DNA of 41,099 nucleotides, taken from positions 1 to 41,099 of the forward strand of contig PXQH01000063.1 in NCBI GenBank assembly GCA_003022125.1. Direction: 5' to 3'. This document shows, piece after piece, positions 16,187 to 31,539 of this stretch. This DNA is from Cyanobacteria bacterium QS_8_64_29. Its GTDB lineage: Bacteria; Cyanobacteriota; Cyanobacteriia; Cyanobacteriales; Rubidibacteraceae. The notes beneath the pieces are model-generated. The model saw only the letters and a list, made by a program, of their open reading frames with translations. It was not told where the DNA came from and made no database searches. The translations under genes were made by a program, and so were the position numbers. Position 1 is the first letter of the stretch, and the number at the start of each line of letters is the position of its first letter.

Positions 16187-16317
16187 AAGGCAAGTTGCGC
16201 GGGGCTGCTTTCAGCCTAGCGCCTGCTGGGGGCCTTGGGGGGTACCAGCAGCCCGCCCGGCTCGATCCCAGCTGGGGTGGCGTGCAGCATGGAGGTGGCT
16301 CGCACAGTGGAGGGGCT

Positions 16318-19300
16318 ATGCATCGTGATCGCGGCGAAATCCGCTGCGCGCCCACAGACCTGCTGCGCTTTCTGGGCTGCCGCCACGCGAGCTACCTCGA
16401 CTGGCACGCGCTCGATGGGGGGTTGCGTCCGGACGATCCCGATCCGCAATCGGCCTTCATCCAGCAGCAGGGGCGCGATCACGAGTGGGCCTACTTGGAC
16501 AAGGTGCGGGTCCAATACAGCTTGGTGGAGATTGCTGCCTCAGGGGGGGTTGCCGAGCGAGCGGCCCGCACGCAGCAAGCCATGCGCGCCGGCACGCCGG
16601 CCATTGCCCAGGCCGTGCTGGAGCGGGGCCCGTGGCAGGGTATGCCGGATCTGCTCTGGCGCATCGAGCAGCCCTCGGCGTTGGGCGCCCACGCCTACGA
16701 GCCCGGCGATATCAAACTGGCGAGCCACCCCCAGCCCGAGCACCTGCTGCAGCTGGCGGCCTATGCCGATCTGCTGGCGAGCGAGCAGGGCACCCTCCCC
16801 CAGCGCCTGCACCTGGTTCTGGGCGACGAGCGCCATCTGGTCTATCGCTGCGCCGAGTTCTGGAACTTCTACACCCGCGTGCGGGACCGCTTCGAGGCCT
16901 TTCTGGCCCAGCTGCCCCAGGCTGCCCAGCCCTCTCAGCCCGAGCCCTGCCCCATGTGCGATCAGTGCGACTGGCACAGCCACTGCGAGGCCGTTTGGGA
17001 GCAGCAAGACCACCTCACCCACGTCGCCGACATCCGCCAGAGCCAGATCGCCAAATTGCGCGCCGCTGGCGTTACGACCGTGGCCCAGCTCGCCGCCCTC
17101 CCCGAAGAGGCAACAGTCCGGGGAATGAGCGCCGGCACGCTGGCGCGCCTGCGCCGCCAAGCCGCGCTGCAGTGCCACCAGCGCAAAACCGGCCAAGATA
17201 CCTACCAACTGCTCGAGGTGGCGCCCGGCCAAGGCCTGGAGCGGCTGCCGCCGCCGGACCCGGGCGATCTGTTTTTTGATATTGAGGGCGATCCCTTCTA
17301 CCCGGGCGGGCTGGAGTACCTGTTTGGTGTTTACCAAACGCTCGAGCCGCCCGAGTTCCGCTGCTTCTGGGCCCACGATCGCGACCAGGAACGCCAGGCC
17401 CTGGAGCAGACGATTGACTGCCTGGTCGCGCGCCTGCAGCAGCGCCCCCATGCCCACATCTACCACTACGCCCACTACGAGTTCTCGGCGCTCAAGCGCC
17501 TGAGCTCAGCCCACGGCACCCGCGAAGCGGAACTGGACCAGCTGCTGCGCGAGCGCAAGTTTGTCGATCTCTACCGGGTGGTGCGCGAGGGGCTGGCGGT
17601 CTCGCGGCCCAGCTACTCCCTCAAAGAGCTGGAGGCGTTCTATACTGACAAGCGCAGCGATGCCGTGGAAACGGCGGTTGACAGCATCCTCTGGTACGAG
17701 CACTGGCGCCAAAGCAGGGACGATACCAAGCTCCGGGACATTGCCGACTACAACCAGGTCGACTGCCGCTCCACGGGCCAGCTGCGCGACTGGCTGCTGA
17801 GCTTGCGCCCCGAGCCGCCCCCAGCCCAGGCAGCAGAGGCCCAGGAGCCGCCAGCGGTGATCGCGGCGGTCCCCACCGAGAGCGACACCCTGGCCCAGGC
17901 CGTCAGCACCGGCGCCACGCACCTGCCCGAGCGCGCGCGCACCCTCATCGGCCACCTGCTCGAGTTCCACCGCCGCGAGGAAAAGCCCCAGTGGTGGGCC
18001 CTGTTCGAGCGGGCCAACAGCCTGGAAGAGGATCTCATTGACGATCCCGAGTGCCTGGCGGGCTTGGTCTGGGATGCCGACTGCCCGCTGGCGGCACACC
18101 AGCGCTCGGTGCTGGTGACCTATCGCTACCCCGCCCAGGAAACCAAGCTGGCTCCCGGCGATCGCCCCGCCATCGCCGCCAACCTGAACGCCACGCACGC
18201 GATCGCGGCGCTCAATGAAACCGAGCGGCGCGTGCAGCTCAAGCGCGGCAAAACCAGCGACCCGCTCCCCGAGCGCCTGTCGCTGATTCCCGGCCGCCCC
18301 ATCCAAACTCAGACGCTCAAGGCGGCAGTAGGCCGCTTGGCGCAATCGGCGGCGGCTCGGGCGGGGCGCTACGCCGCCGTGGAGGCCTTTCTGGCCCGCG
18401 CGGCGCCGCGCATCGCAGGCTGCGACCCGCAACAGCCGCTGGTGGCCCCCGGCTCGGATCCGGTAGCGGCGGTTCGGGACCTGGCCCTGGGCCTGCAGGC
18501 GAGCTACCTGGTCGTCCAGGGGCCGCCCGGCACGGGCAAAACCCATACGGCCGCTCGCGCCATTGTGGCGCTGCTCCAGCGGGGCGATCGCGTGGGGGTC
18601 ATGGCCGCCACGCACAAGGCCATTAACAACCTGCTGGCCAAGGTGGAGGCGGCTGCCCGGGCTGAGGGCCTGAGCTTCTGCGGCGCCCAAAAAGCCAGCA
18701 GCGACCGGCAGGCCTTGAACAGGGAGCAGATTGCTACGGTCCGCGAGCCCAAAAAGATCGGCACCGAGCACCAGCTGATCGCCGGAACCGCCTGGCTCTT
18801 TGCCCGGCCCGAGTTCGATCTGAGCTGCGATGCGCTGTTTGTCGATGAAGCCGGGCAGGTCTCGCTGGGCAATCTGGTCGCGGCCGGCACGGCCGGGCGC
18901 AATTTGGTGCTGGTGGGCGATCGCATGCAGCTAGGCCAGCCCATTCAGGGCACCCACCCCGGCGAGGCGGGGCAATCCAGCTTGGACTACCTGCTGGGCG
19001 AGCGCGCCACCATCCCGCCCGAGCGGGGGGTATTTTTGGACACGACGCGGCGCCTGCCCCCCGAGATCTGCTGCTTTGTCTCCTCGGCCATTTACGAGGG
19101 GCGGCTGCAAGCGCACCCCGATACCGCAACGCGCCACCTGGTGCTGCCTCCGGATGCCCCAGCGGCCCTGGCGCCGCGCGGCCTGCGCTTTGTGGACGCC
19201 CATCACAGTGGCTGCCAGCAAAAAAGCGAGGCCGAAGCCGACATCATTAAGGGGCTCATCGATTGCCTGCTGACCGCCCGCGTTTGCCATGCCGATGGCA

Positions 19301-19656
19301 GCCAACGCCCGCTGACGCTCAACGACATCCTGGTCACCGCACCCTACAACCTCCAGGTCTCGCATCTGGAGCGAGTCCTGCCTGATGGCGCGCAGGTGGG
19401 AACGGTGGATCGCTTCCAGGGCCAGGAAGCCGAGGTGGTGCTGGTCTCCATGACCACTTCCTCGCCGCAGGAGCTGCCGCGGCAGGTGGAGTTCCTCTAC
19501 AGCCGCAACCGGCTCAACGTGGCCATCTCGCGCGCCCGCTGCCTGGCGGTCACCATTGCCAACCCGGCCCTGCTGGATCTGCCCTGCACCACCGTGGAAC
19601 AGATCCGCCCGGTCAATACCTTGTGCTGGCTGCGCGACTACGCCAGGGCGCATTGA
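16318..19656 (+). CDS. TM0106-type RecB-like nuclease fused to SF1 helicase
   Basis: This 1112-residue DNA repair-type enzyme starts at ATG 16318, just after GGAGGGG; an earlier in-frame start at 16195 lacks such a site. The N-terminal PD-(D/E)XK nuclease has GMPDLLWRIE, EPGDIKLAS and the QLAAYADLL motif, and a Cys set (CPMCDQCDWHSHC, residues about 211-223, plus FLGCRH near the start) suggests an Fe-S cluster as in Cas4/AddB. A DEDD/RNase H-like exonuclease follows (LFFDIEGDPFYPGG about 319-332, CRSTGQLRDWLL). The C-terminal DNA2/Upf1-like helicase has [13 protein letters not shown] (about 735), ALFVDEAGQVS (about 840), VDRFQGQEAEVVLVSM (about 1030) and NVAISRARC. The substrate is unproven; processing of DNA ends or flaps is a reasonable inference. 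Confidence 0.9.
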   Translation: MHRDRGEIRCAPTDLLRFLGCRHASYLDWHALDGGLRPDDPDPQSAFIQQQGRDHEWAYLDKVRVQYSLVEIAASGGVAERAARTQQAMRAGTPAIAQAVLERGPWQGMPDLLWRIEQPSALGAHAYEPGDIKLASHPQPEHLLQLAAYADLLASEQGTLPQRLHLVLGDERHLVYRCAEFWNFYTRVRDRFEAFLAQLPQAAQPSQPEPCPMCDQCDWHSHCEAVWEQQDHLTHVADIRQSQIAKLRAAGVTTVAQLAALPEEATVRGMSAGTLARLRRQAALQCHQRKTGQDTYQLLEVAPGQGLERLPPPDPGDLFFDIEGDPFYPGGLEYLFGVYQTLEPPEFRCFWAHDRDQERQALEQTIDCLVARLQQRPHAHIYHYAHYEFSALKRLSSAHGTREAELDQLLRERKFVDLYRVVREGLAVSRPSYSLKELEAFYTDKRSDAVETAVDSILWYEHWRQSRDDTKLRDIADYNQVDCRSTGQLRDWLLSLRPEPPPAQAAEAQEPPAVIAAVPTESDTLAQAVSTGATHLPERARTLIGHLLEFHRREEKPQWWALFERANSLEEDLIDDPECLAGLVWDADCPLAAHQRSVLVTYRYPAQETKLAPGDRPAIAANLNATHAIAALNETERRVQLKRGKTSDPLPERLSLIPGRPIQTQTLKAAVGRLAQSAAARAGRYAAVEAFLARAAPRIAGCDPQQPLVAPGSDPVAAVRDLALGLQASYLVVQGPPGTGKTHTAARAIVALLQRGDRVGVMAATHKAINNLLAKVEAAARAEGLSFCGAQKASSDRQALNREQIATVREPKKIGTEHQLIAGTAWLFARPEFDLSCDALFVDEAGQVSLGNLVAAGTAGRNLVLVGDRMQLGQPIQGTHPGEAGQSSLDYLLGERATIPPERGVFLDTTRRLPPEICCFVSSAIYEGRLQAHPDTATRHLVLPPDAPAALAPRGLRFVDAHHSGCQQKSEAEADIIKGLIDCLLTARVCHADGSQRPLTLNDILVTAPYNLQVSHLERVLPDGAQVGTVDRFQGQEAEVVLVSMTTSSPQELPRQVEFLYSRNRLNVAISRARCLAVTIANPALLDLPCTTVEQIRPVNTLCWLRDYARAH

Positions 19657-19703
19657 GCCCCGTGAGCCGGCGCTAGGATCGCGGTAGTTGCCGGTCCGAG
19701 CCC

Positions 19704-20162
19704 ATGCAAAACGCGCAAAGCCCCAACCTAGCCCAGCTCTACGAAACAGACTATGCTCGCTGGCTAGATGAAACCATCGAGCAGCTTAAAGCGCGCGAGT
19801 TCGACGCGCTGGATCTATCCAACCTGATCGAGGAGCTGGCCGATATGGGGTGCAGCCAAAAGCAGGCTCTTGCTAGCAACCTAGAGCTGCTCCTGCGGCA
19901 CTTGCTCAAGTGGAAGTACCAACCCACCCAGCAAACCCCTAGCTGGCGGCTTACCATTCGAGAACGCCGCAAGCAGATTCGCCGCCTGCTGCGCGACAGT
20001 TCCAGCCTCAAGCCCGAACTAGAGCGGCGACTGCCCGAAGAGTATGCGAATGCACGCGAGCTAGCCGCTGATGAAACGGGGCTATCCTTAGATTGGTTCC
20101 CAACCCAGCCACCATTCGGTATTGAGCAGGCCCTTGATGATCGCTTCTGGCCCCAGTCTTAA
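19704..20162 (+). CDS. DUF29 family protein
   Basis: This 152-residue protein shows the DUF29 pattern common in cyanobacteria: LYETDYARWLDETIEQLKA, ALDLSNLIEELADMGCSQKQ and LLLRHLLKWKYQP, then WRLTIRERRKQIRRLL, LPEEYANARELA and a final FGIEQALDDRFWP. It is helical and soluble with no known catalytic motif; the function is unknown. Such genes often occur in multiple copies near mobile or defence regions, and this one sits immediately left of the CRISPR locus. It follows the helicase gene by 47 bases on the same strand. Confidence 0.9.
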   Translation: MQNAQSPNLAQLYETDYARWLDETIEQLKAREFDALDLSNLIEELADMGCSQKQALASNLELLLRHLLKWKYQPTQQTPSWRLTIRERRKQIRRLLRDSSSLKPELERRLPEEYANARELAADETGLSLDWFPTQPPFGIEQALDDRFWPQS

Positions 20163-20236
20163 CCGCTGGCCGCGATCACGACTGGTGGCAACCGCGGACA
20201 GTCGAGCGCTCCCAACGACTGCTTGGTTCTTGTGTT

Positions 20237-20418
20237 CGATAAATGGGGCCGCTCCTAGTAAGAGCGGTGGAACCTTTGGCCTGAGCCGGATCGCTGGGAT
20301 CGGTGGGATCGCTTCAATGTGGCTGCTCCTAGTAAGAGCGGTGGAACATCGATTTGGGCATCGCTCAGGCCGCGATTGCGTGCTTCAATGGGGCCGCTCC
20401 TAATCGGAGCGGTGGAAC
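20237..20418 (-). CRISPR. CRISPR mini-array 1, three 37-bp repeats, two spacers
   Basis: Repeats occupy 20382-20418, 20311-20347 and 20237-20273, with spacers of 34 (20348-20381) and 37 bases (20274-20310). Read on the minus strand the repeat starts GTTCCACCGCTC and ends CCCATTGAAGC, the ATTGAAgC type of 3' end usual for cyanobacterial repeats. The central stem is CCGCTCC/GGAGCGG in the right-hand repeat and one or two pairs weaker in the others. The left-hand repeat is degenerate in its last bases (ATTTATCG), as expected for the leader-distal repeat, so the leader should be on the right, towards csb2. The array lies on the same strand as, and downstream of, the cas operon and could also be reached by read-through. 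Confidence 0.85.
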
Positions 20419-20680
20419 GGCGGAGAGCCAAACCACCCACGATAGGGAATTTTCAAGGTCCAGTTGCGCGAACCCAAGCGGGCAGGCACCCAAACGGGCG
20501 CAAGCGCAGTTGCCGCAATCGTAGCAAAGCGGCTGCAAGCCGCTCGCCGTGCGGCCTCCATCGTTTGCGCGAACCCCTCCAACCAGCCTATTAGCCTAAC
20601 TTCGCCGCAGCTGGGCAATCCGAGCCCATCAGCCATCCCATGCCGTGTGACAGCCACCCCATCGCGCCAGCTTGCCCCGC
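20419..20680 (-). promoter_or_regulatory. Presumed leader of array 1 / end of cas operon
   Basis: These 262 bases separate csb2 from the first repeat of array 1. The repeat-proximal 45 bases are locally AT-richer (GATAGGGAATTTTCAAG on the plus strand), compatible with a short leader. Further right is a 7-bp hairpin with a 3-base loop (AGCGGCT/AGCCGCT, 20528-20544) without a T tract, and two copies of TTGCGCGAACCC (about 20464 and 20571). No open frame here looks like a gene. The assignment as leader rests on repeat polarity alone. Confidence 0.4.
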
Positions 20681-25291
<4,611 letters not shown>

Positions 25292-25292
<1 letters not shown>

Positions 25293-27412
25293 CAGTTCTC
25301 CACCTGTGGGGTGCAGCCGCCCTGGGCCGAGCCGTGCCAGTCAGCGACGCGGACCAAGGTTTCCAAAAATGCCAGCCGGAATGGCCCGTACCCCGCCGGC
25401 GAAAACAGCTTGCCAGCCTGTGCCGCCCACGAAGGACCCATCTCGCTCTCGCCCAGCTCCATGCAAGCGAGCGAGAGCGCTTGCGGCGGCACGCGCAGGC
25501 CGTCGCCCAGATCCAGCACCGGGAACGGTTTGCCCAGCACCCAGTCACCTTCGTGAATGCCCAGGGCATACCGCTCGGCTGTCTCGTCTGGGGGCGGCTC
25601 CTCAATACCTCGATCTTTGGGGTTCAAAGCATACTGTCGGAGAGTGTGCAATCGGGCAGCTTTGCTTGGCGGCGGCCGTTCGTTGGGGCGCGGCTGGATG
25701 GCCGTGCGGACCTTGCCGTGGTGGCAGGCCACCAGGTAGGCCACTAGGAAGTCACCATCCTGCTGGAGTGCCAGCAGCGCGCTGGCGAGCTCGTGGCGGA
25801 ACCCGCGGCGGTCGGAGGGCATGGCGTACTGGTTCTCGCCCCGCTGGTGGTCCGATTTGGCCCAAAAGTCGGTCCAATTGCGATCGGGGCGCTGGTGGGT
25901 CAGCATTGCCTGGAAGTGGGGATGGGCCTTGCCGGCATCGTGCCAGCGGGCAGCGCGCGTTACGGCCTGCTCGGGCAGATCGAGGGCGGCCAACGCATCG
26001 CACAAGCGTTGGGCCTGCTCGCAGACATCCTGCGCGTGCTGCCGGAGCGTGACGAACTGCTTGGCGCCCTGGCTGGGCGCATCGCCGCTGTCGCGATCGG
26101 CGGTTAGGAGCGTCTCGAGCGAGACGGGCTCGGGTTTCTCCTTGCCGCCCGTAAAGCCCAACTCTGAGGAATAGCCCCCTGACGAGCAAGCCATCAGCAG
26201 TGACAGACCGGGGTAGAGATCGGCCGGGTTGGCGCGCTGCCACTCGCCCTGCATGGCATTCCAGCGCCAAGCAGAGCGTTTTTTGACCAACTCGCGCGCT
26301 TGGCCAATGGGAACGCGGCAGAGCTCTGCCGACTGCAGGGCTTCCCTGTTGTCGGCGCGGGTGGGATCGCTAGGCGGGGGCTTGCCTTCGTCCTCCCAGT
26401 TGCGCCAGGCAATGGCAACGTCGCTGTCCTCGGTGTTGCGCACGAACGGCGAGATGTCGATGTCGTGACCGGCCAGGTCCGTTGCCGTCTCGAATAGCTG
26501 CAGCAAGTCGTGCTGGCGCGGAATGAGCCCTTCCACCGCACTCTGCAGCGGCTCGAGGGCTGTCTTGGCCTGCCCCAAGCTTTCAGGACCGGCATCGCCA
26601 AATTGCTCGGTCAGCTGCTGTAGCAATCGGCGCCCCTCCGCCAGTTCCTGGGCGTTGTAGGGGGCTGAAGCTTTGTCCTCAACATCAATCCAGTAAACGG
26701 CGGCCGTCTCGTTCTGAGTGCCCTGGCGGTTGCAACGCCCCACCCGCTGCACGAACGATGACCAGGGCGGCAGCTCGGTAAACAAGCGATCGGCCGAGAT
26801 ATCCACGCCGGCCTCAACCGCCTGGGTCGCCACCCAGACCCCCGTGGGAGCGGGGCTCTCCTCCCCTAGCAATTGCTCATTGAGCGCCTGGCGCTCCGCC
26901 GCCCGAAAGCGCGAGTGCAGTAGGTGCAGCTCGGCGGGACTGACGGCATCCTGCTTTTGCAGGGCCTGATACACCTGCTGCGCCCGGCCCACGCGGTTGC
27001 AAACCACCAGCGCTAGCGACCCTGGCACGTGAACTTGAGCTACCTCTGCTGCCAGATCGCGGGTGTACCGGCGTTGGGCGTTGGCCTGGACCGGGCAAGT
27101 GACCTGGGCTTGGGCAAGCGGTTTGCGAGCGCTAACGAGGGCGCCGAGCCGCTCGTTCTGCAGGTCATCAGCATTGAGCGACTCGGCTGGCCCCAGATCG
27201 GTATCGCAATCTACCGTCTGCAGCCGTTCGGGCTCCAGCGTTGCGCTCATCCACAGCGAATGCGTGGGGCCGTAAGTTTGGAAGCTGTGGCGGAACCACT
27301 GCAGCTGGGCGGTGGTGAGCAACCCAATCCCCATAAGCTGGGTTTCATCCATAACCCAGAGGCAGTCATTGTTGAGCAGGGCAAAATGCACCGGCCAGCG
27401 GTAGCGGCTCAT
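25292..27412 (-). CDS. cas3: Cas3, C-terminal part: helicase motifs II-VI and HD nuclease
   Basis: This 706-residue frame begins MSRYRWPVHFALLNNDCLWV, which in intact type I-G Cas3 lies inside the helicase core. It holds motif II as VMDETQLMG, LWMSATLEPER (motif III), ATQAVEAGVDISADRLF and QRVGRCNRQG (motif VI). The HD nuclease is C-terminal, as in type I-G: RAARWHDAGKAHPHFQAML (HD around residue 491), FRHELASALLAL and YLVACHHGKVR. Motif I is missing because it is encoded by the preceding frame. The ATG at 27412-27410 overlaps the TAA of that frame (TAATG), so coupled translation could yield two halves of one helicase. On its own the product lacks the ATP-binding loop. Confidence 0.9.
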
Positions 27413-27442
27413 TAGCCGCGGTTGAGGGCGCGGCTAATGAGC
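27407..27442. repeat. Perfect 14-bp palindrome at the cas3 break
   Basis: Arms at 27407-27420 (GCTCATTAGCCGCG) and 27429-27442 (CGCGGCTAATGAGC) are exact reverse complements around an 8-base loop. The first arm, in gene sense, spells the overlapping stop/start TAATG of the two cas3 frames. The second spells codons for LISR in the upstream frame. In the cas3 mRNA the hairpin would enclose the end of frame 1 and the start codon of frame 2. Confidence 0.9.
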
Positions 27443-27825
27443 TGGTCCTGAGTGCCAATGAGGATGCTGTCGCGCTCGGGCTCGAGATCCCAGTGGTTGG
27501 CGACAGAGTCACCCATCAGCAGATACAAGCCCACCTCGTCGCGCAGCCCGGCAGCCTTTAACCACCGCTCAGCCGCCCGATAAGTCTGCTCGACCAGCGT
27601 GCGCATGGGCAGGCAGTAGACCAGCCGCCGGGGCGTTCGCGCGCGAGTTTCAGGCGCGGCATAGCGGCGGCGCCAGAGCCAAGCCAGGATGGCAGCTGCC
27701 GTCTTGCCAGCACCGGTGGGGACATCCAGCAGGTAAGGCAGCGCTGGTGCCGTGGCCAGCCGGTGCTGGTAAGGGAAGCGCTCGTTGCCTGTTATGCGGC
27801 GAAACCAGCTATCAAAGTCGCTCAT
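27412..27825 (-). CDS. cas3: Cas3, N-terminal part: Walker A half of helicase
   Basis: From ATG 27825 (MSDFDSWFRRITG) this 137-residue frame encodes the start of Cas3: FPYQHRLATAPALPYLLDVP runs into the Walker A loop PTGAGKTAA. It continues with RLVYCLPMRTLVEQTY (motif Ia) and SILIGTQDQLISRALNRG, then TAA at 27414-27412. In intact relatives the sequence continues through a short Tyr-containing link straight into MSRYRWP, so about four bases appear to be missing here. The start codon lies inside the last codons of the 85-residue ORF (14-base overlap). Together the two cas3 frames account for a normal-length protein. Activity requires association of the halves; otherwise cas3 is dead. Confidence 0.88.
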   Translation of the reverse strand: MSDFDSWFRRITGNERFPYQHRLATAPALPYLLDVPTGAGKTAAAILAWLWRRRYAAPETRARTPRRLVYCLPMRTLVEQTYRAAERWLKAAGLRDEVGLYLLMGDSVANHWDLEPERDSILIGTQDQLISRALNRG

Positions 27826-28069
27826 TAGAGCGCTCCCACGAATTGCAAAGCGCGTCCCCATCCGCAGAAAGCGGATCGGCAGCCGCCTGGCACGCGCGCA
27901 GCTTTTCCCAGCAATTGCTGAGGCGATCCTCGAGGCACTGGCGTGCTTCGCGCTCGCCGGCTAGTTCCGCTTTGAACGCTTGCAACTCCTCAGAGGGCGG
28001 GGCCTGGTAATGCAGCTGCAGCTCGAGCTCCGCCCCCTCACTAGGGGTAGCCTTGAGGTACAATTCCAT
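27812..28069 (-). CDS. Uncharacterised 85-residue protein leading the cas operon
   Basis: ATG 28069 is preceded by GGAG with a five-base spacer, and the frame ends 14 bases inside cas3, so translation is probably coupled. The N-terminal third is a strand pair rich in Glu and Leu (MELYLKATPSEG, ELELQLHYQAPPSEE). Residues about 29-60 form a charged helix with heptad character (LQAFKAELAGEREARQCLED, then RLSNCWEKLRACQ). Three Cys are present. The charge is strongly acidic. I do not recognise it among known type I-G components (Cas3, Csb1-3, Csx17, Cas4-Cas1, Cas2). It might be a small subunit, a regulator or an unrelated passenger; position and coupling are the only evidence. Confidence 0.65.
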   Translation of the reverse strand: MELYLKATPSEGAELELQLHYQAPPSEELQAFKAELAGEREARQCLEDRLSNCWEKLRACQAAADPLSADGDALCNSWERSNERL

Positions 28070-28088
28070 ATCGACTCCATCGAGTTCG

Positions 28089-28116
28089 ACGGCTTTGGGC
28101 TGCCTCCCAAAGCCGT
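28089..28116 (-). promoter_or_regulatory. 11-bp hairpin in the 5' leader of the cas operon
   Basis: ACGGCTTTGGG (28089-28099) and CCCAAAGCCGT (28106-28116) form a perfect 11-bp inverted repeat with a 6-base loop, ending 20 bases before the ATG at 28069 and about 10 bases before its GGAG ribosome site. No T tract follows on the minus strand, so it is not a standard terminator. It could be an operator for a dimeric repressor or an RNA structure that limits ribosome access. Part of its sequence (GACGGCTTT) recurs at 28217. Confidence 0.6.
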
Positions 28117-28272
28117 TACTAACCTATTTTGCTGCAGTTTGGCCGTCAACCTGTAGCTTTAGCGTCCCTAAATATGATTTGACGACTCTAAATGCAGAGA
28201 GCCTAGCGACGATTTGACGGCTTTAAGGGATAGCTGAAAAGCTAGATAAAACTCTATCTGCCTAAGTCAGAG
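28117..28272. promoter_or_regulatory. AT-rich divergent region: cas promoter and array 2 leader
   Basis: This is one of the few AT-rich stretches in the window. It lies between the leftward cas operon and rightward array 2, so it should hold the operon promoter on one strand and the array leader on the other. Two direct repeats, GATTTGACGACTCTAAA (28176-28192) and GATTTGACGGCTTTAAG (28211-28227), start 35 bases apart; TTTGACG could serve as a -35 box or regulator site. A third, partial match is GTTCGACGGCTTTGGG at 28084. No gene is visible here. Confidence 0.5.
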
Positions 28273-28457
28273 TCGATTCCGCTCCGTATAGCAGCGGCCC
28301 TATTGAAGCAAATCTTAGCTGGGGACGCTTCCGGCTACACCAGTCAAGCGCCTCCACGCCTAGCTATGGGCGTGGCCCCTTTGAAGCACTCACGGTCACT
28401 TTCCTCTTTGCCTTACTCGAGTTTCACCGCACCCTCCGGGTGCGGCCCCTTTGAGGT
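28273..28457 (+). CRISPR. CRISPR mini-array 2, three divergent 37-bp repeats
   Basis: Units of 37 bases at 28273-28309, 28351-28387 and 28421-28457 share the 3' block GGCCC(C/T)(T/A)TTGA and, in the first two, the end TTGAAGC seen in array 1. Intervals are 41 (28310-28350) and 33 bases (28388-28420). Each repeat keeps a central hairpin with different bases: CCGCT/AGCGG, CCACGCC/GGCGTGG and CCGCACCC/GGGTGCGG. The last repeat is altered at its 3' end (TTGAGGT), as expected for a leader-distal repeat, which places the leader to the left beside the cas promoter. The array is therefore opposite in orientation to array 1. It stops 19 bases before the stop codon of the S4-domain gene. Confidence 0.7.
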
Positions 28458-28476
28458 AGCTCAGTCACTCGATTCA

Positions 28477-29256
28477 TCATCGGTAGCGCGTTAGGGCAAT
28501 GCGGTAGCGGCCCTTTTTAGTCGTAGAGACCTCGCCCACCACAACTCGACCCTTACCCTGCAGCGCGATCGCATCGCCCGGGCTGACTGCCTGGCTGGGC
28601 TGGGTGACCTCGCGCCAGTTGAGGCGGACCTCGCCCCGCTCGATCGCGGCGGCGGTTTTGCGGCGCGAGAGGCCAAACCCGGCCGATGCTACCGCATCCA
28701 GGCGTAGCGAGGGCTCCACCGCCGTCAGTTCCTTGGTTTGGAGCGGGCGCACCTTGAGCTCATCTAGTCCAATGGGGCGCACCTTGACCGGCACTGATCG
28801 CACGTAGCCCAGCTCGGCCTCCAAAACCGGCACCCCCTCGGGCGCCAGCACCACCTGGGCGCCACCCTCGCCCAGCACCAGAATGTCGCCCACTTGCTCG
28901 CGCGCGACGCCGGCCCCCAGAATGGCCTCTAAAAAGTCGCGGTGGGTGGCGGTATCGAACAGGAAGTTGCCCCCCAGATCCAGCGCCGCCAGCGGCACCT
29001 GGGCCGCATCCAGCGGAACTTGGGCGCGGGCGATGCCCAACCGCTGCCGCTCGGCTTGGGCAAAGCCGCCGCGCGCCAGGGTCTGAATGTCGCTGAGGCG
29101 CTCCAACCGCTGCTGGATCTCGGCGCACGCCGGCGGCGAGAGAAAGTCCGTGACGCTGACCTCCCAGATCTTGAGCGCCCGCTCGGCCCCATCCAGCGCC
29201 TGCGCCAACGAATCGGGCCACTGGGACCCGTGCAGCAGTTCCTCGCGTGGTAGCAT
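28477..29256 (-). CDS. Photosystem II S4-domain protein
   Basis: This 259-residue RNA-binding-type protein is conserved in cyanobacteria and plastids (TIGR03069 family), related to YlmH. ATG 29256 gives MLPREELLHGSQWPDSLAQA, the usual family start; a GTG at 29268 in GTGA overlap with the upstream gene is possible. Landmarks are KIWEVSVTDFLSPPACAEI, LDLGGNFLFDTATHRDFLEA (residues about 92-111), VGDILVLGEGGAQVVLAPE and, at the C-terminus, the S4 domain AGFGLSRRKTAAAIERGEVR with LNWREVTQPSQAVSPGDAIA. Its role is not settled; the family is linked to photosystem II or to ribosome quality control by homology. Its 3' end abuts CRISPR array 2. Confidence 0.9.
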   Translation of the reverse strand: MLPREELLHGSQWPDSLAQALDGAERALKIWEVSVTDFLSPPACAEIQQRLERLSDIQTLARGGFAQAERQRLGIARAQVPLDAAQVPLAALDLGGNFLFDTATHRDFLEAILGAGVAREQVGDILVLGEGGAQVVLAPEGVPVLEAELGYVRSVPVKVRPIGLDELKVRPLQTKELTAVEPSLRLDAVASAGFGLSRRKTAAAIERGEVRLNWREVTQPSQAVSPGDAIALQGKGRVVVGEVSTTKKGRYRIALTRYR

Positions 29257-29264
29257 ACCGGCCG

Positions 29265-29777
29265 TCACGAGGCGGGTTCGGTATAGCCTTGCAAGTTCTC
29301 CGGCTCCAGCGGTTGCAGCACGCGCCGGGCCTGCTCGCTGGCCGCCTGCGAGCCGCGCACCACCACCAGGTACTTGCCTTCGTTGAGGCGGTTGCGGTAG
29401 GGCAGGGCATCGCCACCGCCGATGAGGAGGCCGGCGCCGCCACCGGCGACAAACGCCCCCATGGCGCCCGCGATCACGCCCAACATCCCGCCCAGCACCC
29501 GGTTACCCAGCGCGCCCGCTTGCGCCCAAATCGTAATCTCGGTGAGGGCGTTGAAGGTGGCCCCCGCCACAAACCCAAACGGCACCAGCCACAGCGCCAT
29601 CAGCCGGATTTGGCGCTTGGCGGGCTCGTTGGGGTCAATCAGGCCGAACTCGTCGGCACTCTGATAGCCCTGGCCCACAATGGCGAGCTGCTCGGTGGGG
29701 AGGCCGGCTTTTTCCAGGGCAACGTAGGCTTCCTCGGCTTTGACCCGGCTGGGTAGAACGGCAATCAGGTAGCTCAT
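29265..29777 (-). CDS. Conserved cyanobacterial membrane protein with glycine-rich helices
   Basis: From ATG 29777 (MSYLIAVLPSRVKAEEAYVA) this 170-residue protein has an N-terminal ferredoxin-like strand-helix unit of the 'general stress protein 17M' type (residues 1-40). Two hydrophobic segments follow: LMALWLVPFGFVAGATF (about 60-76) and a Gly/Ala-rich stretch LGGMLGVIAGAMGAFVAGGG (about 95-114). A C-terminal strand unit follows (KYLVVVRGSQAASEQARRVL). The layout suggests a membrane-associated sensor or stress protein of unknown function. An in-frame start at 29810 is less likely. The stop overlaps a GTG of the next gene, so the pair is an operon. Confidence 0.75.
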   Translation of the reverse strand: MSYLIAVLPSRVKAEEAYVALEKAGLPTEQLAIVGQGYQSADEFGLIDPNEPAKRQIRLMALWLVPFGFVAGATFNALTEITIWAQAGALGNRVLGGMLGVIAGAMGAFVAGGGAGLLIGGGDALPYRNRLNEGKYLVVVRGSQAASEQARRVLQPLEPENLQGYTEPAS

Positions 29778-29958
29778 GGGCGCGCTGGCAGCGCTTCGCA
29801 TGGGGCGCAATAATTGTTAGCGTAGCAATTCGCGCGCCCGCGCAGCCGCCGCCGGCCGTTCTGCCAGCATCCGCCCAAGGTGGGAGAATGGCGCAGTGCC
29901 CGTCACGAACGGGGTCGCCCGCGCCGCCCGCGCAAGCCGATTTCAATGTTTGATGCCC

Positions 29959-31539
29959 ATGTCCAAGGTGCTCGTTTCCGATAGCGTCGACCAGTCCGGG
30001 CTTGATGTCCTGTCGCAGGTGGCGCAAGTCGATTGCAAAACCGGCCTGTCCGAAGACGAGCTCGTCCAGCTCATCCCCGACTACGACGCCCTCATGGTGC
30101 GCTCCGGCACCCAGGTCACCGCAGCCATCCTCGATGCCGGTACCCAGCTCAAAATCGTGGGCCGCGCTGGCGTGGGCGTGGACAACATTGACGTTGAGGC
30201 TGCCACGCGCCGCGGCGTCATGGTGGTCAACTCCCCCGAGGGCAACACGGTGGCGGCGGCCGAGCACACCCTGGCCATGATGATGGCGCTCTCGCGCCAC
30301 ATCCCCGAGGCCCACCAGTCCGTCATGGCGCACGAATGGGAGCGCAAGCGCTTTGTGGGCTCCGAGATCTACAAAAAGACCCTGGGCGTGGTGGGCCTGG
30401 GCAAAATTGGGGCCCACGTTGCCCACGTGGCGCGGGCCATGGGGATGCGGCTGCTGGGCTACGACCCCTTCATCTCTGCCGAGCGCGCCGAGCAGCTGGG
30501 GTGCCGCCTGGTGGATCTGGAGTTTTTGTTCGCCGAGTCGGACTACATCACCCTGCATGTCCCCAAAACCGACGAAACCGCCAACCTCATCGATGCCCAG
30601 ACCCTGGGCAAGATGAAAGACCACGCCCGCATCATCAACTGCTCGCGCGGCGGCATCGTCAACGAGGCCGATTTGGCCGAGGCCCTGCGCAACGATCGCA
30701 TCGCGGGGGCGGCGCTGGATGTCTTCGATAGCGAGCCGCTGGCGGATTCGCCGCTGCGGGATTTGGCAGGCAAAGTGGTGCTCACCCCGCACCTGGGGGC
30801 CTCCACCGAGGAAGCCCAGACCAACGTGGCCGTTGATGTGGCTGAGCAGATCCGCGACGTGCTGCTGGGGCTGCCGGCGCGCTCGGCGGTCAACATCCCC
30901 GGGCTCAGCCCCGATGTCATCGAAAAAATCAAGCCCTACATGGACCTGGCCGAGACCCTGGGCAAGCTGGTGGGCCAGCGGGCCGGCGGCCGCCTGGATC
31001 TGCTCAACGTGCGCATGGAGGGCGAGATTGCCGAGGACCGCAGCCAGCCCATCGTCACGGCCGCGCTCAAGGGGCTGCTCACCCCGGCGCTGCAAGAGCG
31101 GGTCAACTACGTCAACGCCAACATTGAGGCCAAAGAGCGCGGCATTCGCGTGGTCGAGACTAAGGACGAATCCTCCCACGACTACGCCGGCTCGCTGCGG
31201 CTGGAGGCGCGGGGCGCGCAGGGCGATCACTCGGTCACCGGCGCGCTGCTCAGCGATCGCGAGGTCCGCATTACCAACATTGACGGCTTCCCCGTGAGCG
31301 TGCCGCCCAGCAACTACATGCTGTTTACGGTCCATCGGGACATGCCCGGCATCATCGGCCAGATCGGCTCGCTGTTGGGCAGCTTCAACGTCAACATCGC
31401 CAGCATGCAGGTGGGGCGCAAGATCGTGCGCGGCGATGCGGTTATGGTGCTGAGCATCGACGACCCGCTGCCGGAAGGCCTGCTGGATGAGATCACCAAG
31501 GTCTCGGGGGTCAGCGACGCCTACACGGTCAAGCTCTAG
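29959..31539 (+). CDS. serA: D-3-phosphoglycerate dehydrogenase
   Basis: SerA oxidises 3-phosphoglycerate with NAD as the first step of serine synthesis. ATG 29959 (MSKVLVSDSVDQSGLDVL) gives 526 residues, the normal length of the long form; ATG 29953 is equally placed. The NAD-binding loop is LGVVGLGKIGAHVAHVA. The catalytic residues are the Arg in NCSRGGIVNEADL, the Glu in FDSEPLADSPL and the His in LTPHLGASTEEAQTN. An intervening ASB domain (residues about 310-440) precedes the C-terminal ACT domain (FTVHRDMPGIIGQIGSLLG), which usually mediates serine feedback. prmA follows eight bases later, an arrangement common in cyanobacteria. Confidence 0.97.
   Translation: MSKVLVSDSVDQSGLDVLSQVAQVDCKTGLSEDELVQLIPDYDALMVRSGTQVTAAILDAGTQLKIVGRAGVGVDNIDVEAATRRGVMVVNSPEGNTVAAAEHTLAMMMALSRHIPEAHQSVMAHEWERKRFVGSEIYKKTLGVVGLGKIGAHVAHVARAMGMRLLGYDPFISAERAEQLGCRLVDLEFLFAESDYITLHVPKTDETANLIDAQTLGKMKDHARIINCSRGGIVNEADLAEALRNDRIAGAALDVFDSEPLADSPLRDLAGKVVLTPHLGASTEEAQTNVAVDVAEQIRDVLLGLPARSAVNIPGLSPDVIEKIKPYMDLAETLGKLVGQRAGGRLDLLNVRMEGEIAEDRSQPIVTAALKGLLTPALQERVNYVNANIEAKERGIRVVETKDESSHDYAGSLRLEARGAQGDHSVTGALLSDREVRITNIDGFPVSVPPSNYMLFTVHRDMPGIIGQIGSLLGSFNVNIASMQVGRKIVRGDAVMVLSIDDPLPEGLLDEITKVSGVSDAYTVKL

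Follow-up and report, generated by a model that had tools for sequence, protein, structure and literature searches.

Regulation of cas genes by crRNA-like RNAs has been described for types I-B, I-E and V-A, where the RNA is known as CreR (accessible parts of the reviews PMC13131331, PMC12737573 and PMC12948488). CreA repeats are divergent and degenerate (as described in parts of PMC8501985 and PMC9458426), the first repeat keeping the 5' handle and the second losing it (same part of PMC9458426), and the positions that CreA needs are 1-5 and 7-11, whereas 6 and 12 are free (PMC8501985). CreP typically has a KilA-N domain, according to the accessible part of PMC12737573. Among the type I subtypes, I-G has been described as the least well understood; the accessible part of the same report describes a Cascade that flips every sixth base, a TTN PAM and, for another I-G system, a Csb2 cleavage geometry of stem, 4-nt gap and 8-nt handle (PMC9638904). 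In the accessible part of a structured-RNA survey of CRISPR operons, I-G comes up in connection with a direct repeat and with a palindrome next to the array (PMC9067536). A Cre RNA was joined with type I-G in none of the matches listed in our literature search, the scope of which excluded the primary CreR paper (Liu 2023).

We report on a type I-G locus of Cyanobacteria bacterium QS_8_64_29, analysed in a stretch of 41,099 nucleotides (the window; contig PXQH01000063.1), in which diverged repeats beside the cas operon probably encode a CreR-like guide by which the I-G Cascade would repress its own operon. A Cre-type guide in type I-G may be new, without a claim to priority.

The type I-G locus and its diverged repeats

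The cas operon lies on the minus strand and comprises a split cas3 (N-terminal piece 27412..27861, C-terminal piece 25292..27412), cas8g (csx17; 23148..25292), cas7 (csb1; 22204..23148) and csb2, encoding a Cas5-Cas6 fusion (20681..22414; profile match from residue 71). A genuine small CRISPR array (20237..20418, minus strand as taken from the handle) with three near-identical repeats of 37 nt and two spacers adjoins the far end of the operon, opposite the cas3 end. Cas1 was not found in the window genome (G000; 0/1) by a search that was positive in 9 of 14 control genomes. Despite the missing Cas1 and the split cas3, the reading frames of csb2, cas7 and cas8g are intact, and the C-terminal His of Csb2, common to 12/12 aligned sequences, is a candidate catalytic residue. 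The cas3 gene is one frame in 10/10 aligned relatives; in the window it is split at 27407-27442, at a perfect 14-bp inverted repeat with an 8-nt loop located at the conserved NRG-MSR point. The split resembles a frameshift templated by a quasi-palindrome, or else an error of assembly, and is followed by a TAATG restart. Beside the genuine array we also observed a gene for a DUF29 protein (19704-20162; PF01724, E 3.9e-50), and a 1153-aa ORF at 16195-19656 has PADLOC matches to MkoA and DpdJ and a weak Cas4 match. An Rfam search over 19000-30000 returned only two snoRNA matches, which were below the gathering scores and were taken as chance.

Three repeat-like units occupy the interval that separates the cas3 end of the operon from an S4-domain gene (28477-29268). 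On the plus strand these are psiR1 (28272..28309; 38 nt) and psiR2 (28348..28387; 40 nt), with the intact handles TATTGAAGC and CTTTGAAGC, respectively, and psiR3 (28421..28457; 37 nt), with the partly degenerate handle CTTTGAGGT. The first-pass annotation had placed here a mini-array of three 37-bp units with a common 3' block and unlike stems. Its coordinates hold, the units spanning 28272-28457, as do the number of units and the stems (CCGCT/AGCGG, CCACGCC/GGCGTGG and CCGCACCC/GGGTGCGG), but the unit length varies between 37 and 40 nt. The common block, GGCCC(C/T)(A/T)TTGA(A/G)G, is indeed present and matches the 3' terminus of the repeat in the genuine array (20237-20418), GGCCCC(A/T)TTGAAGC and variants. 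The units are therefore read on the plus strand, divergent from cas; a minus-strand reading of the mini-array was dropped because the conserved block turned out to be the 3' handle. In all three units the 8-nt handle sits 4 nt 3' of the stem end. When a 14-mer of the conserved block was searched in the whole genome with at most two mismatches, 38 matches were obtained vs 11 for the reversed control, and only three had 0-1 mismatch (two inside the window, one on another contig). The degenerate 14-mer has nine matches in the window vs a shuffle mean of 3.79, and nine was reached in 2/100 shuffles.

If the units were chance hairpins or unrelated intergenic repeats, modest folding would be expected, and some of the values are of this kind: compared with shuffles of each unit, the stem score gave p 0.268 for unit 1, the stem of which is not significant on its own, p 0.0065 for unit 2 and p 0.002 for unit 3; the single-unit fold energies have z-scores of -0.84, -0.78 and -3.0; and the whole 186 nt has z -1.49, with 16/200 shuffles equally stable. 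However, the two arms of the stems covary. Re-dealing the three 3' arms among the window units always lowers the pairing, from 15/15 cells as found to 11-13, and across 15 units from seven loci 72/75 stem-base cells are paired, vs a mean of 54.9 and a maximum of 68 in 20,000 permutations, a count for which the 5' arms were picked by a stem finder that favours pairing. Together with the handle common with the nearby array, the CRISPR-like spacing and the leader complementarity described below, this makes chance highly improbable. The earlier proposal of selection for structure, as a Csb2-type site, gains support from the covariation and from the layout of the units, in which a stem, a gap of 4 nt and a handle of 8 nt follow one another as described for a different I-G system, and such selection appears likely. 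A different yet paired stem, CCGTTCCC/GGGAACGG, is seen in the outermost repeat of the ESFC-1 array (L042:5152) and constitutes another compensated change.

Functional adaptive arrays combine near-identical repeats with adaptation genes, whereas here the units are divergent and the genome is without Cas1. Judged from their sequences, the three units appear to be diverged type I-G CRISPR repeats, for which a mini-CRISPR giving rise to crRNA-like guides is the best interpretation.

Pseudo-spacer matches in the cas leader

The units delimit two pseudo-spacers on the plus strand, psiS1 (28310..28347) and psiS2 (28388..28420). As in a Cre guide RNA, degenerate repeats of the co-located system flank a spacer-like segment, and psiS1 has seed complementarity (positions 1-5 and 7-11) to the presumed promoter region nearby. 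Two minus-strand sites in the cas leader are matched: site A (28198..28218; GTC followed by the protospacer from 28215), with mismatches at positions 6, 8, 12, 15, 16 and 18 of the first 18, and site B (28163..28183; GTC followed by the protospacer from 28180), with mismatches at 6, 9, 10 and 12. Seed pairing is 9/10 for site A and 8/10 for site B, neither reaching the full 10. Of all window positions on both strands these sites rank first and second (scores 12.3 and 9.5; next 7.8), and 0/3000 shuffles of psiS1 reached the observed score in the window leader, be it with any PAM or with a GTY filter. Both sites overlap a direct repeat (28167-28191/28202-28226).

For psiS2 the best match in the window (score 10.1) is 12.6 kb away with no GTY beside it and was not accepted as a target; no GTY-adjacent seed match with at most two mismatches was found in the genome except psiS2 itself, and no phage match was found.

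The target lies in the cas leader, where a consensus scan recognised no promoter; by eye, a tentative cas promoter (TTGACG-17-TAGGTT; 28121..28149, minus strand) was noted, which is below the scan threshold. A 36-nt protospacer at site B would extend to its TTGACG. In the presumed 5' leader a strong 10-bp hairpin (28090..28115, minus strand) was noted by eye, directly downstream of the target; strong hairpins are similarly placed in two other cyanobacterial loci introduced below (L083:13731-13761 and L092:14180-14203), and by eye similar ones are present in L097, L099 and L100, with a weaker one in L082.

Recurrence and mismatch spacing in other type I-G loci

Type I-G loci were gathered by Cas8g similarity, yielding 41 loci from titled records and further loci from genomes drawn from the relatives, the phylum and the order of the window genome, in which Cas8g matches were obtained for 7/40, 7/386 and 9/388 genomes, respectively. 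Because they duplicate the records L090 and L099, L041 and L042 were not counted; the ESFC-1 pair has an identical 120-aa ORF in common. Sequence of 300 nt or more upstream of cas3 was available for 42 of the 53 loci under study, which were assessable, while 11 were not. The cas3 ORFs at 42/42 assessable loci match both cas3 pieces of the window; at L052, L077 and L080 the cas3 homology starts well inside the ORF taken as cas3, and their modules are therefore upstream of cas3 proper. Within the cas8g of L083 there is a short near-tandem direct repeat (L083:10021-10123), where the Cas8g match is in two pieces.

Upstream handles with a seed match of at least 9/10 numbered 16/44. Three were rejected: L055 (a self-overlapping repeat), L081 (without a matching hairpin and with a different PAM) and an opposite-strand match of L099 (part of psiR1). 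The 13 that were kept give a module in 13/42 assessable loci, i.e. the window and 12 others. With the arrays masked, a local seed match accompanied 7/12 exact handles and 16/51 handles with at most one mismatch, compared with 12/113 for six shuffled handles together; these 16 matches represent 12 accepted modules and four non-modules (L048, L050, L073 and the opposite strand of L099), and L054, whose handle has two mismatches, brings the modules to 13. A control on handles in other parts of the locus (150/431) had picked up repeats of the genuine arrays in reverse orientation and was redone with masked arrays. Handle scans allowing up to three mismatches were discarded as noise (105/1739 vs 129/1242, 65/1437 and 82/1258 in controls).

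Seven of the 12 assessable cyanobacterial loci carry the module (the window, L082, L083, L092, L097, L099, i.e. ESFC-1, and L100), and by the same criteria none was found in L040, L071, L081, L090 and L098. The other six modules belong to records that do not carry a cyanobacterial name: two of Chloroflexi (L052 and L057), one of Dehalococcoidia (L054), one of Gemmataceae (L053) and a pair of "bacterium" bins from a single project (L077 and L080). A second decayed repeat was seen by eye in L052, L053, L054 and L057; it was also looked for in L077 and L080, and none was found. The six other cyanobacterial copies have two repeats, the first of which keeps the handle (with one change in L082) while the second, by eye, has lost it. 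The window differs from these in that the handle of its third and last repeat is only partly degenerate. The array is oriented with cas in the six other cyanobacterial copies and against cas in the window, L052, L053, L054 and L057.

In 7/7 cyanobacterial module loci psiS1 matches the cas3 leader after GTC or GTT, a rule that was formed by eye on four loci (the window, ESFC-1, L082 and L083) and that held in three more (L092, L097 and L100). Within the entire locus (14-41 kb) this leader match ranks first in six cases and second in L092. With any PAM, the number of psiS1 shuffles (of 3000) reaching the score in the own leader was 0 for L082, L083, L097 and L100, 9 for L099 and 59 for L092; with the GTY filter it was 0/3000 in six loci and 1/3000 in L099. 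Own-leader scores range between 7.5 and 15.3, vs a maximum of 8.0, or 5 with the GTY filter, when each psiS1 was compared with the other six leaders (n=42). L092 is weak, given the 59/3000 shuffles without the PAM filter and one cross-locus pair (8.0) that exceeds its own 7.5.

The mismatches at 15 target sites (16 rows minus the pseudo-spacer of L054 matching itself) are unevenly distributed: 1/75 at positions 1-5, 13/15 at position 6, 8/75 at positions 7-11, 12/15 at position 12, 16/75 at positions 13-17 and 11/15 at position 18. Pairing at positions 6, 12 and 18 counted little or not at all in the scoring, so that about 75% mismatch is expected there by chance, and the informative part is hence the contrast with the other positions, in particular 13-17, which are outside the seed criterion of the masked-array handle test. 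Mismatches at 6, 12 and 18 are as expected for, and would fit, a system flipping out every sixth base, and we infer from them that positions 6 and 12 are dispensable for targeting.

The motif preceding the target is GTC or GTT at 9/9 cyanobacterial sites and TTG, TTC or TTT at six others, and these latter, at the six non-cyanobacterial loci, fit the TTN PAM reported in the accessible part of the I-G study cited above. As regards a PAM from real spacers, seven arrays were searched (L040, L081, L082, L083, L090, L098 and L100; those of L091, L092, L097 and L099 were left out). One usable protospacer was obtained, a weak match of the L090:4204-4238 spacer to Aphanizomenon phage vB_AphaS-CL131 (32/35, E 9e-3), which is preceded by GTG; the other array spacers gave no match, unrelated phages at E 0.06-0.3 or a plasmid match outside the array. 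The invader targets of these seven arrays did not confirm the GTY motif, the sole usable one having GTG. The spacers of the window's genuine array gave one match only (E 0.3).

These data bear on whether the units are an ordinary array remnant that is drifting, its stems held only by past Csb2 processing and the leader match being accidental or a self-targeting spacer. The window genome by itself could be read in this way, having no Cas1, a split cas3, only two genuine spacers and a psiS2 without an accepted target. But the same arrangement, in the same place and with leader-matching spacers, is present in 12 other I-G loci, and drift would not maintain seed pairing with six-spaced mismatches. 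Moreover, five of the six other cyanobacterial carrier genomes have Cas1 genes, and three carriers (L082, L083 and L100) have arrays of about 40 repeats; the exception is G062, where Cas1 was not found and the I-G Cas8g and the guide module are kept. Since Cas1 is present in five of these six carriers, the module is not a by-product of lost adaptation. We consider mere decay very unlikely. The earlier suggestion of selection for structure "after adaptation ceased" fits the window genome but does not give the cause, given the carriers with Cas1 and long arrays.

The predicted guide and its relation to known Cre systems

Repression of the cas operon by its own Cascade through a CreR-like guide is the reading that we favour. 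The mini-array of three pseudo-repeats and two pseudo-spacers would be transcribed on the plus strand, and the preserved stem, 4-nt gap and handle suggest that Csb2 would cut within each pseudo-repeat to give crRNA-like guides; in a cultured carrier such as the filamentous cyanobacterium ESFC-1, the mature RNAs would have the 8-nt handle ATTGAAGC and then the pseudo-spacer. Guide 1 would be loaded into the adjacent type I-G Cascade and lead it to the two GTC-flanked sites just upstream of the presumed cas operon promoter. Complementarity is concentrated in the seed, plus a 13-20 stretch at one site, and we infer that Cascade would therefore bind and block transcription rather than recruit Cas3. 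The predicted transcription, processing, binding and repression would amount to negative feedback on cas expression, as in CreR. Points that speak against this reading are the negative promoter scan of the window leader, the lack of an accepted psiS2 target, the weak L092 match, the seed matches at shuffled handles, the five assessable cyanobacterial loci where no module was found, the GTY motif in view of the TTN PAM published for I-G, and the divergent orientation of the window array, in which it departs from the other six cyanobacterial copies. The first reading of these units, as guide-like RNAs under cas control, was thus probably right about their guide-like nature; the direction is most likely the reverse, with the guide controlling the cas operon.

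Between the leader and cas3 the window has a small ORF of 85 aa (27812..28069, minus strand) that overlaps the start of cas3 and is without a family match. The guide might, as in CreTA or CrePA, silence a small gene or RNA in this slot, which separates the targeted promoter from cas3, and the silenced gene or RNA would do harm once Cascade fails. Cascade would then be kept by addiction or as an anti-Acr alarm, and cas repression would be secondary. The CreR-like and the CreTA/CrePA-like readings share the same guide and target. Picked by eye among mechanical ORFs, a slot ORF is present in 6/7 cyanobacterial loci (among the relatives at L092:13784-14101, L097:6127-6327, L099:6372-6734 and L100:13138-13386), though not in L082. 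Those of L092 and L097 are related (39% over 72 aa, E 1e-9) and those of L099 and L100 perhaps related (30% over 53 aa, E 0.001-0.003), although the latter likeness is weak and the same table has a presumably chance match at E 0.006. A terminator-like hairpin separates the slot ORF from cas3 in L100, similar hairpins in L083 and L097 being seen by eye only and absent from the scan output, and Cascade is retained without Cas1 in G000 and G062 and with a split cas3 in the window. On the other side, the window slot ORF overlaps cas3 and a terminator was looked for there and not found, so the targeted leader is the cas operon's own; in addition, searches of Pfam, NCBIfam, PHROGs and PADLOC assigned none of the six slot ORFs to a family, a PIN_6 match of the L097 ORF, the sole one, being far below the cut-off (E 0.22). 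We regard a CreTA/CrePA-like role, the main rival of the CreR-like one, as rather unlikely. A homologue of the L092 slot ORF was found in 1/244 genomes, its own only, and of the L100 slot ORF in 0/292 genomes by a search without a positive control. The L099 slot ORF has a possible internal repeat, and in the Gemmataceae record the slot upstream of cas3 encodes a sigma-70-like protein (L053:2919-3548; PF08281, E 1.9e-6).

In its widest form, which is unlikely and a shade more doubtful still, the proposal would be that I-G systems of several phyla possess a Cre guide which has kept its hairpins and silences a slot upstream of cas3, often with small proteins of no recognised family, and that in genomes that have lost Cas1 (here also with a split cas3) guide and cargo keep Cascade alive, the pair being a new kind of CRISPR addiction or anti-Acr module that is based on protein.

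If the favoured CreR-like reading is true, RNA-guided self-regulation of cas genes reaches type I-G, with a range covering cyanobacteria and records named Chloroflexi, Dehalococcoidia and Gemmataceae. It would also offer a possible reason for the persistence of Cascade in a genome without Cas1, and it suggests that odd repeats beside cas operons are not to be written off as decay. A lone handle near cas3 together with a local seed match spaced 5+1 provides a search rule for more modules.

As far as the known systems are described in the accessible parts of the sources cited above, the window module has, by its sequence features, what appears to be the Cre-RNA architecture of CreA and CreR. Like the ordinary type I-G repeat, its units show a stem, a 4-nt gap and an 8-nt handle; unlike ordinary I-G repeats, they vary among themselves and also depart from the genuine array of the locus. 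The likeness to CrePA is that the gene of a small protein next to cas would come under repression by a crRNA-like RNA, but the slot ORFs are without a KilA-N match. The six two-repeat cyanobacterial copies resemble CreA of CreTA in having two degenerate repeats with the handle kept in the first and lost in the second, and the seed at 1-5 and 7-11 with positions 6 and 12 apparently free is as in CreA (PMC8501985); in contrast to CreTA, no RNA toxin was identified in the I-G module, and the window repeats keep a hairpin whereas haloarchaeal CreA repeats are without a conserved one. With CreR the window shares a mini-CRISPR beside the cas genes, a spacer-like segment partly complementary to the presumed promoter region of cas, and intact Cascade genes, while it differs in being of type I-G, in its hairpin repeats with covarying stems, in having three repeats and two spacers, in the GTY-flanked targets of the cyanobacterial copies and in the small ORF that often lies between the target and cas3.
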